DNA from: an uncultured Prevotellaceae bacterium
GTDB taxonomy: Bacteria; Bacteroidota; Bacteroidia; Bacteroidales; Bacteroidaceae
Length of the DNA stretch: 9,619 nt
NCBI GenBank assembly: GCA_945787625.1
Contig: CALZJL010000029.1
Coordinates: 1 to 9,619, forward strand
Reading direction: 5' to 3'
The notes under the pieces are model-generated. The model was not told where the DNA came from, searched no databases, and saw nothing but the letters and a program-made list of their open reading frames with translations. Each line of letters opens with the position of its first letter. Within the stretch, counting starts at the first letter, position 1. Made by a program: the position numbers and the translations under genes. This document shows positions 3,351 to 9,619 of this stretch, piece by piece.

Positions 3351-4403
3351 TCAGTTTTCGCGATAATAGTCGAGCATCTCCTCAATCTCAGCCTTCGAAG
3401 CAGACTGGTCGATACGAATGTCGCCCACCCCACCCAAGAGAGTGAAATTGATAACGCCACCCTGATTCTTCTTGTCGTGAGTCATCAAGTCGTAAAGCAC
3501 ATCATAATGACGGCACTCAAACTCAAACCTCCCATAGTGCTCCCTCACGAAAGCCTCAATCTGATGGAACAGCAAGCTCGGGAAGCCACACCTGCGCACG
3601 CTGAGATACAGCTCCATCACCAAGCCCCACGCCACGGCATAGCCATGCAACACCGTACGATTCTCACTCAGCGCAAGACTCTCGATGGCATGCCCCACCG
3701 TGTGACCCAAGTTAAGAGCCTTACGAACGCCCCTCTCCGTAGGGTCCTCCGTGACGACAGCCTCCTTGATCGCCACACTCTTCCCCACCAGCCTCATGAG
3801 CTCCACATAGTCAGGCTCCTCGATGTCGAACGCCAGCAGCTCCGTCAGATGCCCACTCCCGTCGAGCAAGCCATGCTTGAGCATCTCAGCATATCCCGAG
3901 AGGAGATTAGCCCTGTCGAGCGTACGCAAGAACTCCCCCGAGAGCAGCACACAGCCAGCACAGTTAAAGACCCCAATCTCATTCTTCAGCCCCCCGAAAT
4001 TGATACCCGTCTTGCCCCCCACCGAAGCATCGACCTGCGCCAGCAGCGTCGTCGGCACATTGATATACGCCATGCCACGCTTAAACGTGCTCGCAGCAAA
4101 GCCCCCCAAGTCCGTCACCATACCACCCCCGAGGTTCACCATCAACGAATGACGCGACGCTCCCCCAAGCTGCAACGCCGCCCACACCTCAGCAAGAGAG
4201 TTGAGATTCTTCGCCTCATCAGAAGAGCCAATCGTAATCATCATAGCCCCACTCATACACCCAAACCCCTTGACAAGCGGCCAGCAGAGCTGCACCGTCG
4301 TCGTATCCGTCAAGACAAAAAGCCTGTCATGAGCAATCCCATCAATCGCAGCCGTAAGCTCACGCTCAAGAGCGTCCACCAAAATCACATTCTGTTTCAT
4401 CAT
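3351..4403 (-). CDS. aroB: 3-dehydroquinate synthase
   Basis: AroB converts DAHP to 3-dehydroquinate, the second step of the shikimate pathway, in the cytoplasm, using NAD+ and a divalent metal (Zn or Co). Counting from an in-frame GTG at 4406, the diagnostic blocks are the nucleotide-binding NLGGGMVTDLGGFAAS (91-106), VPTTLLAQVDASVGGKTGIN (117-136), GYAEMLKHGL (171-180; E174 is the expected metal ligand), TEDPTERGVRKALN (219-232) and LNLGHTVGHAIE (231-242; H235 a metal ligand), and H254 in LHGYAV as the third ligand. All expected active-site positions I can place are present, so it should be active. Length (350 residues from ATG) is normal for bacterial AroB. I chose the ATG at 4403; a second ATG follows at 4400 and the GTG at 4406 cannot be excluded. 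It begins 8 bp after the stop of the upstream multidomain gene, so the two are almost certainly one operon. A separate shadow frame on the opposite strand stays open across the whole gene and is not taken as coding. Confidence 0.96.
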   Translation of the reverse strand: MMKQNVILVDALERELTAAIDGIAHDRLFVLTDTTTVQLCWPLVKGFGCMSGAMMITIGSSDEAKNLNSLAEVWAALQLGGASRHSLMVNLGGGMVTDLGGFAASTFKRGMAYINVPTTLLAQVDASVGGKTGINFGGLKNEIGVFNCAGCVLLSGEFLRTLDRANLLSGYAEMLKHGLLDGSGHLTELLAFDIEEPDYVELMRLVGKSVAIKEAVVTEDPTERGVRKALNLGHTVGHAIESLALSENRTVLHGYAVAWGLVMELYLSVRRCGFPSLLFHQIEAFVREHYGRFEFECRHYDVLYDLMTHDKKNQGGVINFTLLGGVGDIRIDQSASKAEIEEMLDYYREN

Positions 4404-4411
4404 CACAACAA

Positions 4412-7400
4412 TTACATAACCCTGTCCTCAGTCAGACAGAAGTCTGACACATCAGTTATCTCAATCCCCGAATAGTAGAACTGCAAGATCTCCCTATACG
4501 ACTTCCCCCGATGCCCCATGACCGCAGCCCCAATCTGACACATACCCACACCATGCCCCCAACCCCTGCCATGCAAGACAAAGTCAGGCCCCACAGCCCC
4601 CTCAGCCGCAGGAATCACCTCCACATCAAACGCACTCGAAAAGAGATGCGACCCACTCAAAGCCCTGCGAATCTCCAGCTCCTTGCCGATAATCATCGAA
4701 CGCAGCGAGCCCACAATCCTAAGCCTGCTGATATGATAGCCAGGACCACGCTCCACCGCCTCCAGAGCAAGCACCACACCGAAATCCACCTTCAGCCTGT
4801 CGAGCAGCAAGTCATGAAGCTCCCCCTGAGCCAGACGCACCTCCCAACGATAGAAATCACGCGTCTCAAGATCATAATCATTCAGCACCTGACGCAAGAC
4901 CACCTCATCAGAAGTGTTGCAATACGGATCCGCCACACTACGCAGATACGGCTTCGACACATTCTCCCACGCAAAGCGAAACTCCTCAGTCCGCCCCCCA
5001 CAACACTTCGAAAACCTCGCATCGACAATCTCATCGCCAAACACCATGATCTGCCCGCGCGTAGCCTCCACCGCCTCACGCACCACACTCCGCGTAGCGC
5101 GCGTCACCCCCTGATACCGCTGGCAATGATCATCAGCACACACATCAAAAATCGTATGGTCCTCACGATCATACCAACGCACGATCTCATTGTCATTCTT
5201 CGTAAAAGCAAAGAACTGAGGCTCCCCACCCACACGTCTCCGCCTCACCATCTGCGCATACAGCCAGCTCCGCGAAATCACCGCCGCAGCCTTCAGAAAC
5301 TCCAGCGAACACGTCTCCTTCATCTCGCTCGAAATCACACTCGCCAGATACTCCTCCACATCAATCACATTGATTGCCACAATCCTGTCCTCGTCCACCA
5401 CCAGACGCAACACACCGCGAAACGTCAGCGTCTCCTGCCTCTCCCAGTGAAACTTCACCCCAATCGTCACCCCATGCAAGCTAAACGAAGGCACCTCCGT
5501 CCCCCCCACAACAGGGCGGAACGTCAAGTTGCGATACAGCTGCCCCCTCCAGCGCAGCGACCCCTCCTCAAGCACCACCACCTCAGACCCCGAGACCACA
5601 TGCCCCTTGGCCGAATACTCCCCATTAATCGTAAACCCAATCGAATCGCCACTCATGATCCCCACACAGACCTCATGCGACAAACCCACGCCCTCCCTCA
5701 GAGCATCACCCACAGCCACATCATTCGAGCCAGCACCATCAGCGACAACATTCGGGCGAGGCGCATCAGACACAGCATCAATGACAGGCTCCAGCTCCTC
5801 CCAACTCAACGTCACCTCCCTCAGGATACCAGCCGCCCCCTCATACGTCATACCCACAAAGTCCCCCTCACGAGGCGTGATAATCAGTCCCCCCATATCC
5901 AAAGCCCCCGGAGAGACCATCACACGCCCCCTCCCCTCCTCAGCATAGTAACACTCCGGCCTATGCTTCGCACGCGGGAAAATCAGCGTCACCAACTCGT
6001 CCCCACGCCCCAGCGAGCCCTCCTGACGCCAACAGATAAGATTCATACGAGGCTCCGCCTCCCCCTCCACCACAGGCAAAGCCCTATACAGCCGCTGACA
6101 CAGCACACTATCCGCATCAGAAGGCAAACTCCTAATCACAAACACCGGACACACATACGACTCCAACACAAACAACCCACAACGATCACTCGTATTGCCA
6201 GCCTCACACATATCCACCGCCCTCGCCCCCGTCAGCGGATAAATCTTACGCAGCTGAGACTCATACCTACGCCAGTCACGCTCAATCGGCACCACCCCCC
6301 GGCTCCCCGACTGCAAATGCATGTGATCCGGACACGAAGCCCCACACACCGGGCCGTTGTAAAACACGATCTGCCCCCTCAGAGCCCACGCCATCCTACG
6401 CATCGCCGTAAAATGCGACCAAATACTCTGCGGAGCATGACGACGCGCCGCAATAGTGAAATGCCGAGGCAAAATCGGAAACGGATTGACCAACACCTGA
6501 TAATGCCTCTCCACCATCAACGCCCGCTGCACCGCCGGACGATTCTCATCACACAAGAAACAAGGACGCGCCTCCAAAGCCGCCCTGTCAATCCTCGCCC
6601 CCGTCGACACCATACGCGCAGGATTCCACTGCACACACAGCACCCCCGCCCCATCAGCCACACCCTCACCCGAGCGAGCCAGCCCCCTCGACCTCACCCC
6701 CTCCAGCGCAGCATACCTCTCAGCCACCTCAGGCCACACCCCCAGCTGATCGTCAAAAAAAGCATCGACCTCCTCCTCACACACCTCATGCCCCCACACC
6801 ACATTCAACGCCCTACGCGCCACAATCTCCTGCGAGCGCAGACTGTCCTTATAGAGATTATTCGCATTAATCCTATCCTGACTCAAAGCCGCATCACTAT
6901 TGCCGTCCCAACGGCGACACAGATACAACTCATCGTAAATACGCCCGATACGAAAACGCCTGCTGATCATCAGCCCCAGAGCATAATCCTCCCCATAGCT
7001 CGTATTCGGAATCTCAATCTCCCTCAACACCCTCGTATAGAAAGCCCTCGGCGCCCCCAGCCCATTGATGCGCAACGCATTGTTACGCCCATTCTGAGCC
7101 GTCCACTCCCTATGGTCAATCAGCCCCGGCGGCAACGTCTCCAGATTAAAGTCACACATCCTGTACGACCCGATCACCATCGCAGCCCCCTCCTCGTAAA
7201 ACTTATCCACGATCCTCTGCAACGTATCCTCCCCACTATAAAGGTCATCACTGTCCAGCTGCACCACAAAACGCCCCACACGCCCATCGTGCACCGCCAG
7301 ATTCCAGCACCCCCCGATCCCCAAGTCATCACGCTCCGGCACGATATGAATCACCCTCCCGTCAGCAGCAGCAAACCTCTCCACAATCTCCGACGTCCCG

Positions 7401-8212
7401 TCCGAGCTCCCATTGTCCACCACCATCAGATTAAACGCAAACGACGTCCGCTGCCTCAACACACTCCCGATAGCATCAGCAATCGTACGCACACGGTCCC
7501 TCACAGGAATCACCACCGTAGCCTCCACCGCAAAATCATCATCCTCCTCAAACCTCACCACATCAAACTCCCGAGGGTGCAAAAAAGCATTAATCGCCCT
7601 CAGATGACGCGTACACGCCCTCTCCATCTCCACCTGCCGGCTACGATTCCTCACGTCCACATAGTCAAACTGCTTCTGCCCCGACAAACGCGTATCCATC
7701 TCCACCTCCGTATACAGAAACTCACGCACATGCACAGGCAGCCTCCGTCGGCTCAGCCACAGACGCAAGTCATACAAGCCCGCAAACCTATAGCGATGCA
7801 GTCCCCCCTGCGCAGCATACACCTTCAGCTCCGCCGTACGCACCAGCAACAGCCCCCCCATCTGGAAATCGTCCCTCACACTACCCTCCTGATAGTCAAT
7901 CAAAGGCATCGCCCGCCTCTCCCCGTCAGGCAACACGATATAATGATCCGCATACAACAGCAACGCATCGCTGTCGCGCGCCACCGTCAGCATTCTCTTC
8001 AAAGCATGAAACCCCAGCCTCAGCCTGTCATACTTCGTATAGATCAACACATACGGAGCCGAAGCACGCTCAGCCATCTCACACACCGAGCGAGTCGAGC
8101 CCACCCCCTCCACCAGATGAAACACATTGTCCACCAGCGCATCAGCCCTAAGCTCACGCTCCGTATCACCACCCTGCTCACTATCAATCCAAGGAATAAA
8201 GCAATCAATCAT
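4412..8212 (-). CDS. Four-module fusion: degenerate GT-A + family-2 glycosyltransferase + GalT/HIT-like (DUF4922-type) + SpoIID/LytB domain
   Basis: A single 1266-residue frame. Residues 1-215 look like a reduced GT-A-type domain ([19 protein letters not shown] 57-75, [14 protein letters not shown] 84-97, [12 protein letters not shown] 143-154). Residues about 228-470 are a canonical GT2 domain: [20 protein letters not shown] (231-250), [14 protein letters not shown] (264-277), the metal/nucleotide-sugar QLDSDDLY (318-325), GEDYALG (407-413) and [11 protein letters not shown] (431-441). Residues about 523-815 resemble GalT/Ap4A-phosphorylase (HIT-superfamily) enzymes: [11 protein letters not shown] (550-560, a CxxC pair), [19 protein letters not shown] (574-592) and [12 protein letters not shown] (623-634, HxHxQ with H630, H632, Q634). 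Residues about 846-1255 are SpoIID/Lyt[19 protein letters not shown] (947-964, E963 the likely catalytic acid), [12 protein letters not shown] (972-983), H1019/C1025/H1029/C1030 as a likely zinc site, CCGGRTEEF (1070-1078) and [17 protein letters not shown] (1215-1231). I see no signal peptide or membrane helix. The ATG at 8212 begins right where homology-like sequence begins. The chain's joint function is unknown; wall or surface glycan metabolism is inferred. Confidence 0.9.
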
Positions 8213-8262
8213 ATAGTCGAAAGAATAACATCAAATCCAAAAACTAACATATCAACGACCAC

Positions 8263-8270
8263 AAATTTAG
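8263..8270 (-). promoter_or_regulatory. Candidate Bacteroidetes -7 box for the fusion gene-aroB operon
   Basis: On the minus strand the bases read TAAATTTG, an exact match to the Bacteroidetes -7 consensus TAnnTTTG. Transcription would begin near 8256, giving a leader of roughly 44 nt before the ATG at 8212. No good TTTG-type -33 element lies at the usual 19-21 bp spacing (the nearest TTTG, 8282-8285, is only 11 bp away), so the call rests on one box. There is no clear Shine-Dalgarno before the ATG, which is common in this phylum. Confidence 0.4.
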
Positions 8271-8323
8271 CAATTAAATTTCAAAAAATCCCCCTTCCCC
8301 ACCAAAAATCTCACAAAAACACC

Positions 8324-8331
8324 TAACTTTG
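8324..8331 (+). promoter_or_regulatory. Candidate Bacteroidetes -7 box for the ATP-grasp-like gene
   Basis: TAACTTTG matches TAnnTTTG exactly. A start of transcription near 8338 would leave about 20 nt of leader before the ATG at 8359. This placement also argues against the in-frame TTG at 8329 as the translation start, since that codon lies within the -7 box. No convincing -33 element is visible at standard spacing. Confidence 0.45.
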
Positions 8332-8358: not shown

Positions 8359-9246
8359 ATGCGCATACACATCTTCAACCCCGAAAACGACATGGCCCTC
8401 GCCCACGACCACCCCGGCTACACCCCACCCGCCAGCATACGCGCATACATCGAGCGCAACTGGCGCCTCCCCTACCAATGGGCAGCCCCCGGCGACATCG
8501 TATGGGACCGCCGCACCCCCTTCAGCCACTACCACATCAACGACTACACCCACATCGAGCTCTGCCCCTGGGGGTGGTCCAAAGCCATCGTCCACCAGCT
8601 CCAGAGAGCCGGCGTCCCCCGCCAGCACATGCCCAGCGACTCCACCCTCCGCCAGCTCCGCACCCTCTCCAGCCGCGAGACCACCGTCGCCATACAACAA
8701 GAACACCACCTCGAAGCCCACGCCTGCCACACCATCGCCCAAGTCGAAGACATACTCGCCCGGCAGCAAGCCCACAAGACCTACATCATGAAATCCCCCT
8801 GGAGCTCCAGCGGCAAAGGCCTCATGACCACCGCCAACCCCCACTGGCGTCAATGGGCACAGCGCATCCTCCGCCAGCAAGGCGCCCTCACCCTCGAGGG
8901 CAAGATGCCCCGCGAGCGCGACTTCGCCATGGAGTTCACCCTCGACGGCCGCGGCACCTGCACCTACCTCGGTCTCTCCCTCTTCGACACCGACCCCCAC
9001 GGCCACTACCTCAGCAACCACCACGGCACCGAAGAAGAAAAGACCCAGCTACTCCTCGCCACCCATCCCCACCAAGCCCAGACCCTCGCCGCCCTCCGCC
9101 GCTACTACATCGAGCGACTCCCCCAGATGGCCCCCTGGTACAAAGGCCCCGTAGGAGTCGACATGCTCATCACCCCCGACGGCGAGATAAACCCCTGCAT
9201 CGAGATAAACTGGCGCATGACCATGGGTCTTGTGGCACTGTTATAA
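8359..9246 (+). CDS. ATP-grasp-like protein of the IFNPEND family, probably missing its 3' end
   Basis: 295 residues from the ATG at 8359. The start is chosen because MRIHIFNPENDMALA matches the conserved opening I associate with uncharacterised Bacteroidales proteins, and an in-frame TTG at 8329 would give a low-complexity leader inside the promoter box. Visible blocks are IFNPENDMALA (5-15), ELCPWGWSKAIVHQL (67-81), YIMKSPWSSSGKGLMT (142-157, resembling the ATP-grasp lysine plus flexible Ser/Gly loop) and GPVGVDMLI followed by CIEINWRMTMG (263-271, 280-290, resembling the ATP-grasp metal-binding E-x-N-x-R). This suggests an ATP-dependent carboxylate ligase-type fold; substrate unknown. The gene is divergent from the glycosyltransferase operon. 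Codons are overwhelmingly C-ending until residue 289, then read GGT CTT GTG GCA CTG TTA TAA, and the protein ends only five residues past the EINWRMTMG motif. I infer truncation or 3' replacement near 9226. A genuine short C-terminus remains possible. Confidence 0.75.
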   Translation: MRIHIFNPENDMALAHDHPGYTPPASIRAYIERNWRLPYQWAAPGDIVWDRRTPFSHYHINDYTHIELCPWGWSKAIVHQLQRAGVPRQHMPSDSTLRQLRTLSSRETTVAIQQEHHLEAHACHTIAQVEDILARQQAHKTYIMKSPWSSSGKGLMTTANPHWRQWAQRILRQQGALTLEGKMPRERDFAMEFTLDGRGTCTYLGLSLFDTDPHGHYLSNHHGTEEEKTQLLLATHPHQAQTLAALRRYYIERLPQMAPWYKGPVGVDMLITPDGEINPCIEINWRMTMGLVALL

Positions 9247-9451: not shown

Positions 9452-9583
9452 TTTTGTAGTTTGGTGATTTGGTTGTTTTGTCGTTTCTATTCATTTAACG
9501 AGCATTAAACGGATATTAAACGAGCATCTAACCACCAGGACAACCAACCAAACAACCAAACAACAAAAAACTAAACAACAAAA
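9452..9583. repeat. Imperfect inverted repeat with GT-rich and AC-rich low-complexity arms
   Basis: TTTTGTAGTTTGGTGATTTG (9452-9471) matches the reverse complement of 9564-9583 at 16 of 20 positions, with about 92 nt between the arms. The arms extend into low-complexity sequence: GGTTGTTTTGTC on the left and repeated CCAA/CAAA words on the right (9540-9584). This could be a MITE- or REP-like element, a transcript hairpin, or chance complementarity between biased low-complexity tracts. Confidence 0.4.
9495..9527. repeat. Three tandem 11-bp units inside the inverted repeat
   Basis: TTAACGAGCAT (9495-9505), TAAACGGATAT (9506-9516) and TAAACGAGCAT (9517-9527) lie head to tail, with one difference between units 1 and 3 and two between units 2 and 3. 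An 11-bp period is close to one helical turn, so each unit would show the same DNA face, as in iterated protein-binding sites. They sit centrally between the GT-rich and AC-rich arms. Confidence 0.55.
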
Positions 9584-9619
9584 CTTGGAATTGTTCTCGC
9601 TTATTCGTAACTCTGAGCT

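Follow-up and report, generated by a model that had tools for sequence, protein, structure and literature searches.

What does a protein do that carries glycosyltransferase, phosphorylase-like and SpoIID-type domains in a single chain? The question is raised by a gene on the minus strand of a 9,619-nucleotide stretch of DNA from an uncultured Prevotellaceae bacterium (GenBank assembly GCA_945787625.1, contig CALZJL010000029.1), which we analysed over its full length and refer to as the window. An original prediction, made from the letters of the window alone, had read the gene as a fusion of a GT2 glycosyltransferase, a GalT/HIT-like domain and a SpoIID domain serving one pathway. Judging from sequence comparisons, we favour with moderate confidence the reading that the product is a cytosolic enzyme for the salvage of peptidoglycan sugars, which arose by fusion of three proteins that are nearly always inherited together.

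Domain composition and fusion states

The features of the gene that bear on this reading are the following (minus strand throughout). Residue conservation was taken from a 98-row alignment in which the window stands beside 97 frames of near relatives at 85 loci, with split genes entered separately, and each count includes only the aligned sequences that reach the position, the window among them.

4412..8212, minus: whole fused gene, 1,266 amino acids, ATG start, no break in frame
7595..8212, minus: divergent GT-A domain 1 (residues 1-206), predicted from an AlphaFold2 model and secondary structure
6788..7522, minus: GT2 domain 2 (residues 231-475)
7244..7261, minus: DxD motif QLDSDD (residues 318-323); D320, D322 and D323 identical in 85/85
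6983..6994, minus: GEDY motif (residues 407-410), candidate catalytic base, a role we carry over from GT2 enzymes; E408 and D409 identical in 85/85
5783..6775, minus: DUF4922, an Ap4A-phosphorylase/GalT-like HIT domain (residues 480-810)
6311..6325, minus: HMHLQ motif (residues 630-634); H630, H632 and Q634 identical in 85/85
4445..5677, minus: SpoIID/LytB domain (residues 846-1256)
5324..5326, minus: Glu963, aligned with catalytic Glu101 of Clostridioides difficile SpoIID (5txu); identical in 84/84
5123..5158, minus: zinc-site-like H1019, C1025, H1029 and C1030; identical in 84/84

The chain thus holds four domains: GT-A domain 1, GT2 domain 2, DUF4922 and SpoIID/LytB. Pfam searches placed Glycos_transf_2 (PF00535) at residues 232-364 (69.1 bits, cut-off 23.3), DUF4922 (PF16269) at residues 485-636 (184.5 bits, cut-off 23.6) and SpoIID at residues 941-1058 (82.1 bits, cut-off 23), and the NCBIfam model SpoIID_LytB (TIGR02669) covered residues 946-1253 (164.8 bits, cut-off 83.3). 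The PF00535 score together with the DxD motif assigns domain 2 to the GT2 glycosyltransferases. Scores remained below the cut-offs for the stage II sporulation protein D equivalog (TIGR02870, 133.7 bits against 234.75) and, narrowly, for Ap4A phosphorylase (PF19327, 22.4 bits against 23.1), the latter despite a fold search in which DUF4922 matched the Ap4A phosphorylase/GalT fold (Apa2); a sequence search of DUF4922 against the PDB gave nothing significant, with Apa2 at E 1.5. For residues 1-206, the predicted model, structure matches to the chondroitin polymerase K4CP that extend over both glycosyltransferase domains, and a weak profile match between domains 1 and 2 (local E 0.019, probability 2.4%) together indicate a further GT-A domain; in the VIA-align comparison of the first model residues 1-193 were hardly covered, so the assignment depends on these three lines. 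Its D89 and D115 are identical in 84/84 sequences. The three enzymes named in the original prediction are therefore all present, and the second domain of glycosyltransferase fold was what it had missed.

In the SpoIID domain, H1019, C1025, H1029 and C1030 were paired with H134, C140, H145 and C146 of the C. difficile enzyme by motif and spacing, the printed 5txu alignment being gapped in this region. The C. difficile enzyme is reported to depend on E101, C140 and H145 for activity in vitro, its H134A and C146A variants retaining partial activity (PMC6221140). With these active-site residues invariant across the relatives, there is no sign of decay in any of the three enzymes, which bears out the earlier view that no part is a degenerate passenger.

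We considered whether the frame could be an artefact, as the original prediction had allowed. The best 120 of 7997 scored homologs align over 98-100% of the chain at 64-99% identity and show the same three Pfam domains, and the full fusion occurs at 74 of the 85 near-relative loci, mostly in separate genome assemblies (one of the 74, L027, starts at residue 254, where its contig ends). An assembly or sequencing error that joined separate genes is therefore ruled out for practical purposes, its likelihood being negligible, and the single frame of 1,266 residues is confirmed and conserved. Homologs also carry the Pfam label PF26216. An antisense open frame of 1,271 amino acids (window 4511-8326, plus strand) finds no support among homologs and is probably a by-product of base composition.

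To describe the fusion states we write G, D and S for glycosyltransferase, DUF4922 and SpoIID, with a slash for a gene boundary. Beside the 74 full fusions, the 85 loci comprise three GD/S, three G/D/S and two G/DS arrangements, two loci of Parabacteroides distasonis (G/D at one, S at the other) and one locus that ends after D at a contig end. As the 85 loci include the best 80 of 567 genome relatives, the share of full fusions is overstated. In a broader sample of 149 Bacteroidales genomes, drawn evenly, DUF4922 was found in 36, of which 29 have separate frames; open-frame lengths indicate one apparent full fusion (G140), three apparent GT-DUF4922 fusions (G073, G149, G153) and three apparent DUF4922-SpoIID fusions (G022, G039, G125). 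The occurrence of several pairings (GD/S, G/DS and GDS) shows that joining took place repeatedly or that some of the parts later came apart again. The guess that this is a 'Rosetta stone' fusion was right, and the survey of DUF4922 and SpoIID neighbourhoods in Bacteroidales proposed along with it found relatives in which each part has its own gene, these genes being often adjacent and nearly always co-inherited.

Co-inheritance and operon context

Co-inheritance was observed at two taxonomic depths; genome completeness was not given for these samples, and an absence could be a gap. Among the Bacteroidales, the tandem glycosyltransferase is present in 36/36 genomes with DUF4922 against 1/113 without (the exception, G025, has a weak match, and MurQ on the same contig), any SpoIID in 36/36 against 50/113, and an AmpG-like permease at E <= 1e-60 in 36/36 against 3/113. 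MurQ-type matches were found in 19/36 genomes with DUF4922 (16 above the curated cut-off) and in 11/113 without (6 above the cut-off, two in pieces). In a sample of 296 Bacteroidota genomes the glycosyltransferase occurs in 40; of the 38 such genomes lying outside the order sample, all 38 have DUF4922 and 37 have a full-length SpoIID of the linked type. Conversely, 20 tested genomes (of 256) lacking the glycosyltransferase contained neither DUF4922 nor a full SpoIID at E <= 1e-15, with weak SpoIID tails in five of them. One genome, G073, holds two tandem glycosyltransferase copies (C1 and C9), one fused to DUF4922 and the other sharing an operon with SpoIID and AmpG genes but not with DUF4922.

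Recurrent neighbours of the trio include genes of peptidoglycan-fragment uptake and recycling. A cluster of AmpG-family proteins is represented at 60 of the 85 loci and lies next downstream of the trio in 58. In stretches of 4-20 kb around DUF4922 in the 36 genomes, many of them cut by contig ends, we counted the glycosyltransferase 30 times, AmpG 26, SpoIID 24, a putative sugar kinase 17, NamZ 14, MurQ 9 and a Golvesin_C protein 9. The kinase is so labelled because of a weak BadF/BadG match and its position beside MurQ. Near-complete operons were found in G014, G107 and G135, the first being the genome of reference locus L075, from which most of our reference proteins came. At this locus, in Bacteroides propionicigenes, the order is SSF symporter, Golvesin_C, metallophosphoesterase, glycosyltransferase, DUF4922, SpoIID, AmpG-like permease and NamZ.

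What looks like the same set of genes is known from Tannerella forsythia, in which, going by gene order, Tanf_08355 presumably encodes DUF4922 and ybbC presumably NamZ. The ampG operon of this organism (Tanf_08345-08370) is given as xanthan lyase, gtf, gtf, lytB, ampG and ybbC (PMC5388701). The listed order matches the split relatives (Golvesin_C/xanthan lyase, glycosyltransferase, DUF4922, SpoIID, AmpG, NamZ); gtf, gtf and lytB appear there as separate genes to which the text consulted ascribes no function, and in the window their apparent counterparts are fused. Linkage to peptidoglycan recycling genes was observed in relatives and not at the window's own locus. The proposal of one pathway draws its support from this context, that is from the recurrence of AmpG, NamZ, a putative sugar kinase and MurQ beside the trio and from the T. 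forsythia operon.

Compartment, proposed role and alternatives

A cytosolic site is unusual for a lytic transglycosylase. Inspection of hydropathy and of the sequences by eye, with no signal-peptide program, showed neither a signal peptide nor a membrane helix in the 1,266-residue fusion, and the split parts likewise have no visible signal peptide. In all 8 genomes chosen from the 36, the linked SpoIID lacks a visible signal peptide and its domain begins at the very start of the protein, whereas a signal-like N terminus was seen in all 12 Bacteroidales genomes chosen from the 50 that have SpoIID and no DUF4922. The linked type is 44-48% identical to the SpoIID domain of the window, the other type 23-29%. 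Since no signal peptide is visible and glycosyltransferase and HIT domains share the chain, the module is likely cytosolic. The original prediction had a peptidoglycan-type glycan as the target; the lack of a visible signal peptide argues against the sacculus and makes imported fragments the likelier substrate. Its suggestion that a sugar nucleotide is made or recycled would be compatible with the fold of DUF4922. C. difficile SpoIID (5i1t, 5txu) acts on denuded glycan during sporulation, and the fusion's SpoIID domain differs from it in having no visible signal peptide and a score under the sporulation-protein cut-off.

The major substrates of T. forsythia AmpG are described as the peptide-free disaccharides GlcNAc-anhMurNAc and GlcNAc-MurNAc (GlcNAc, N-acetylglucosamine; MurNAc, N-acetylmuramic acid; anhMurNAc, its 1,6-anhydro form), and the step after uptake, in an organism without a predicted AnmK ortholog, is there said to remain for exploration (PMC7670621). 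We propose a salvage role because the trio forms the part of an operon around AmpG, the importer of these disaccharides, for which we found no described function; the cytosolic site, the substrate and each reaction are what we infer. AmpG would bring GlcNAc-anhMurNAc and GlcNAc-MurNAc into the cell, where the fused enzyme would take them apart: SpoIID would attack the MurNAc moiety by cleaving or re-opening its muramyl/1,6-anhydro bond, GlcNAc would be handled by the GT2 and Ap4A-phosphorylase-like domains by way of a nucleotide sugar, and the products would pass to the sugar kinase and MurQ. A more specific version, which we think improbable as it stands, is a phosphorolytic splitter. In it the GT2 domain, running in reverse with a nucleoside diphosphate, would lift GlcNAc off GlcNAc-anhMurNAc as a nucleotide sugar, the Ap4A-phosphorylase-like domain would use phosphate to yield GlcNAc-1-phosphate and regenerate the nucleotide, and the cytosolic SpoIID would open the anhydro ring to give MurNAc.

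Known enzymes offer partial parallels. The fusion's domains are not known to share a fold with AnmK, NagZ or MurQ. Apa2 (4i5t) and GalT/ADP-glucose phosphorylase share the fold of DUF4922, with the fusion's PF19327 score just under the cut-off and its substrate only putative. The chondroitin polymerase of Escherichia coli K4 (2z86, 2z87) likewise has two GT-A domains per chain, but domain 1 of the fusion is divergent and the domain arrangement differs (root-mean-square deviation ~22 over both). The E. coli route through AnmK, NagZ and MurQ likely serves the same substrates in the same compartment (PMC7670621), and from it the fusion differs in having no kinase domain.

Several observations weigh against the salvage reading. 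A SpoIID-type enzyme would be expected to need a MurNAc-GlcNAc bond, which the imported disaccharides lack. The peak hydropathy ranges of the linked and the other SpoIID N termini overlap at their edges (0.56-1.58 against 1.42-2.81), and for this reason the signal peptides were judged by eye. Only 22/36 genomes have SpoIID and DUF4922 within 3 kb of each other, some of the misses perhaps being due to contig ends, two members of the AmpG cluster (L075, L081) match the AmpG family best but below curated cut-offs, and the kinase scored 21.2 bits against a cut-off of 31.5. The window has no AmpG gene beside the fusion; an aroB-like gene comes next instead. Thirteen genomes in which the fusion stands away from AmpG were searched; in 11 an AmpG-like gene with 43% identity or more lies at another site, and of the remaining two one has only a 27% match and one (1.6 Mb) none.

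The alternative closest to our proposal is that the module is a non-homologous replacement of AnmK, with SpoIID opening the 1,6-anhydro ring of (GlcNAc-)anhMurNAc, water or a sugar serving as acceptor, to give MurNAc for a kinase; we regard it as possible but doubtful. In the order sample AnmK is found in 4/36 genomes with DUF4922 and 94/113 without (Fisher 3.9e-15), T. forsythia is reported to use GlcNAc-anhMurNAc as a MurNAc source without a predicted AnmK ortholog (PMC7670621), and G107, which does not belong to the main clade, carries the entire operon but gave no match to AnmK. An rpoB tree showed, however, that most of this signal stems from one clade of 34 genomes, none with an AnmK match and 29 with DUF4922; outside it AnmK is kept in 4/7 genomes with DUF4922. 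Of 9 independent pairs on the tree, a mean of 2.4 were inverse and 0.0 same-way (median p 0.5), numbers too small to reach significance, and a few of 200 pairings contained one same-way pair. The tree comprised 140 of the 149 genomes (G057, G060, G092, G102, G141 and G145 had no rpoB match, G096 and G121 only fragments, and G110 two pieces) and keeps five partial rows, a very long branch for G106 and 44/137 inner branches left open. Across the phylum, AnmK occurs in 17/40 genomes with the glycosyltransferase and 190/256 without (Fisher 1.3e-4), and the control genome Bacteroides ihuae matches both DUF4922 and AnmK. PMC7670621 further describes growth of T. forsythia on free anhMurNAc as restricted, and Porphyromonas gingivalis as lacking AnmK and releasing fragments; absence of AnmK therefore need not mean replacement. 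The rpoB tree and the wider sample of the phylum thus weaken the case for strict replacement that the order sample had suggested: in some Bacteroidota the module may stand in for AnmK, but it is not defined by the absence of AnmK.

A biosynthetic role, in which salvaged parts are assembled by the glycosyltransferase and nucleotidyl-transferring domains into a glycan or an activated muramyl sugar that SpoIID then trims or transfers, would fit the resemblance of the tandem GT-A domains to two-domain K4CP and the Ap4A phosphorylase/GalT fold of DUF4922. We think it unlikely, the identified neighbours (AmpG, NamZ and MurQ) being genes of uptake and breakdown, which is a weak counter-argument given that polymer-export and lipid-carrier genes were not looked for. 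Finally, the genes for the parts often lie side by side and overlap slightly, as expected if neighbouring genes under shared regulation were joined neutrally without a common substrate. This seems to us rather improbable, because co-inheritance persists where SpoIID lies apart, as in P. distasonis and in the 14/36 genomes in which it is not within 3 kb of DUF4922, and because more than one pairing was found fused.

Neighbouring genes and implications

The window's neighbours of the fusion are an aroB-like gene, an outer-membrane protein (OMP) beta-barrel gene and a divergent gene without a family match. The AroB-like gene (window 3351-4406, minus strand) scored 292.4 against the aroB equivalog cut-off of 305 and is followed by the OMP gene. 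The divergent gene (window 8359-9246, plus strand), which starts MRIHIFNPENDMALA, was matched by no Pfam model at E 0.1, and no NCBIfam model came close to its cut-off; that it has an ATP-grasp fold is just a guess. Its relatives stand beside the fusion in L002, L003 and L045, and L002 shares the aroB-like gene as well. TAxxTTTG boxes at window 8262-8269 (minus) and 8324-8331 (plus) face both divergent genes and resemble the Bacteroides -7 element, and a short tandem repeat array with a CAAACAAC unit occupies window 9541-9584.

Among the relatives, up to 33 of the 85 loci have further genes in common upstream of the fusion (clusters 2-8), mostly on the opposite strand. Five loci (L006, L009, L027, L035, L078) have a large cluster-15 gene next downstream of the fusion, the member in L006 being a GH92-type glycosidase above cut-off. 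The AmpG-like permease beside the trio can hold an insert of ~180 residues in mid-protein (L278:10972-12843; L254:12237-14111; L272:12263-14128), and the frame that holds the best AmpG match is at least 540 amino acids long in 14/39 genomes, instead of ~440. MurQ matches within frames of ~560 amino acids (G021:C54:5000-5749, G139:C25:32205-32954) are possibly fusions with another enzyme. The separated SpoIID of P. distasonis (L083:9971-13299) follows a gene for an OPT-family oligopeptide transporter, which may hint at peptide-bearing substrates. Carriage of the fusion on plasmids was considered and rejected, as the matching records of a plasmid collection look chromosomal from their gene content; they served only as annotated relatives, two unannotated ones as DNA only.

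Each component family was already known. In the literature searched, which included few subscription papers, we found no description of the four-domain order, of the SpoIID subfamily without signal peptide or of the phylum-wide trio, in agreement with the earlier statement that no characterised protein with such an order was known to its author. If the phosphorolytic scheme were true, it would constitute a second cell-wall recycling route, independent of NagZ and AnmK, that spans the Bacteroidota and coexists with AnmK in part of them. More generally, a trio that lies in the T. forsythia-type ampG operon and is fused in the lineage of the window is a testable candidate for the processing of anhydro-muramic acid without AnmK. 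It suggests that a fold of the lytic-transglycosylase type works in the cytoplasm, an unusual place for it, and bears on how gut and mouth Bacteroidota reuse cell-wall fragments.

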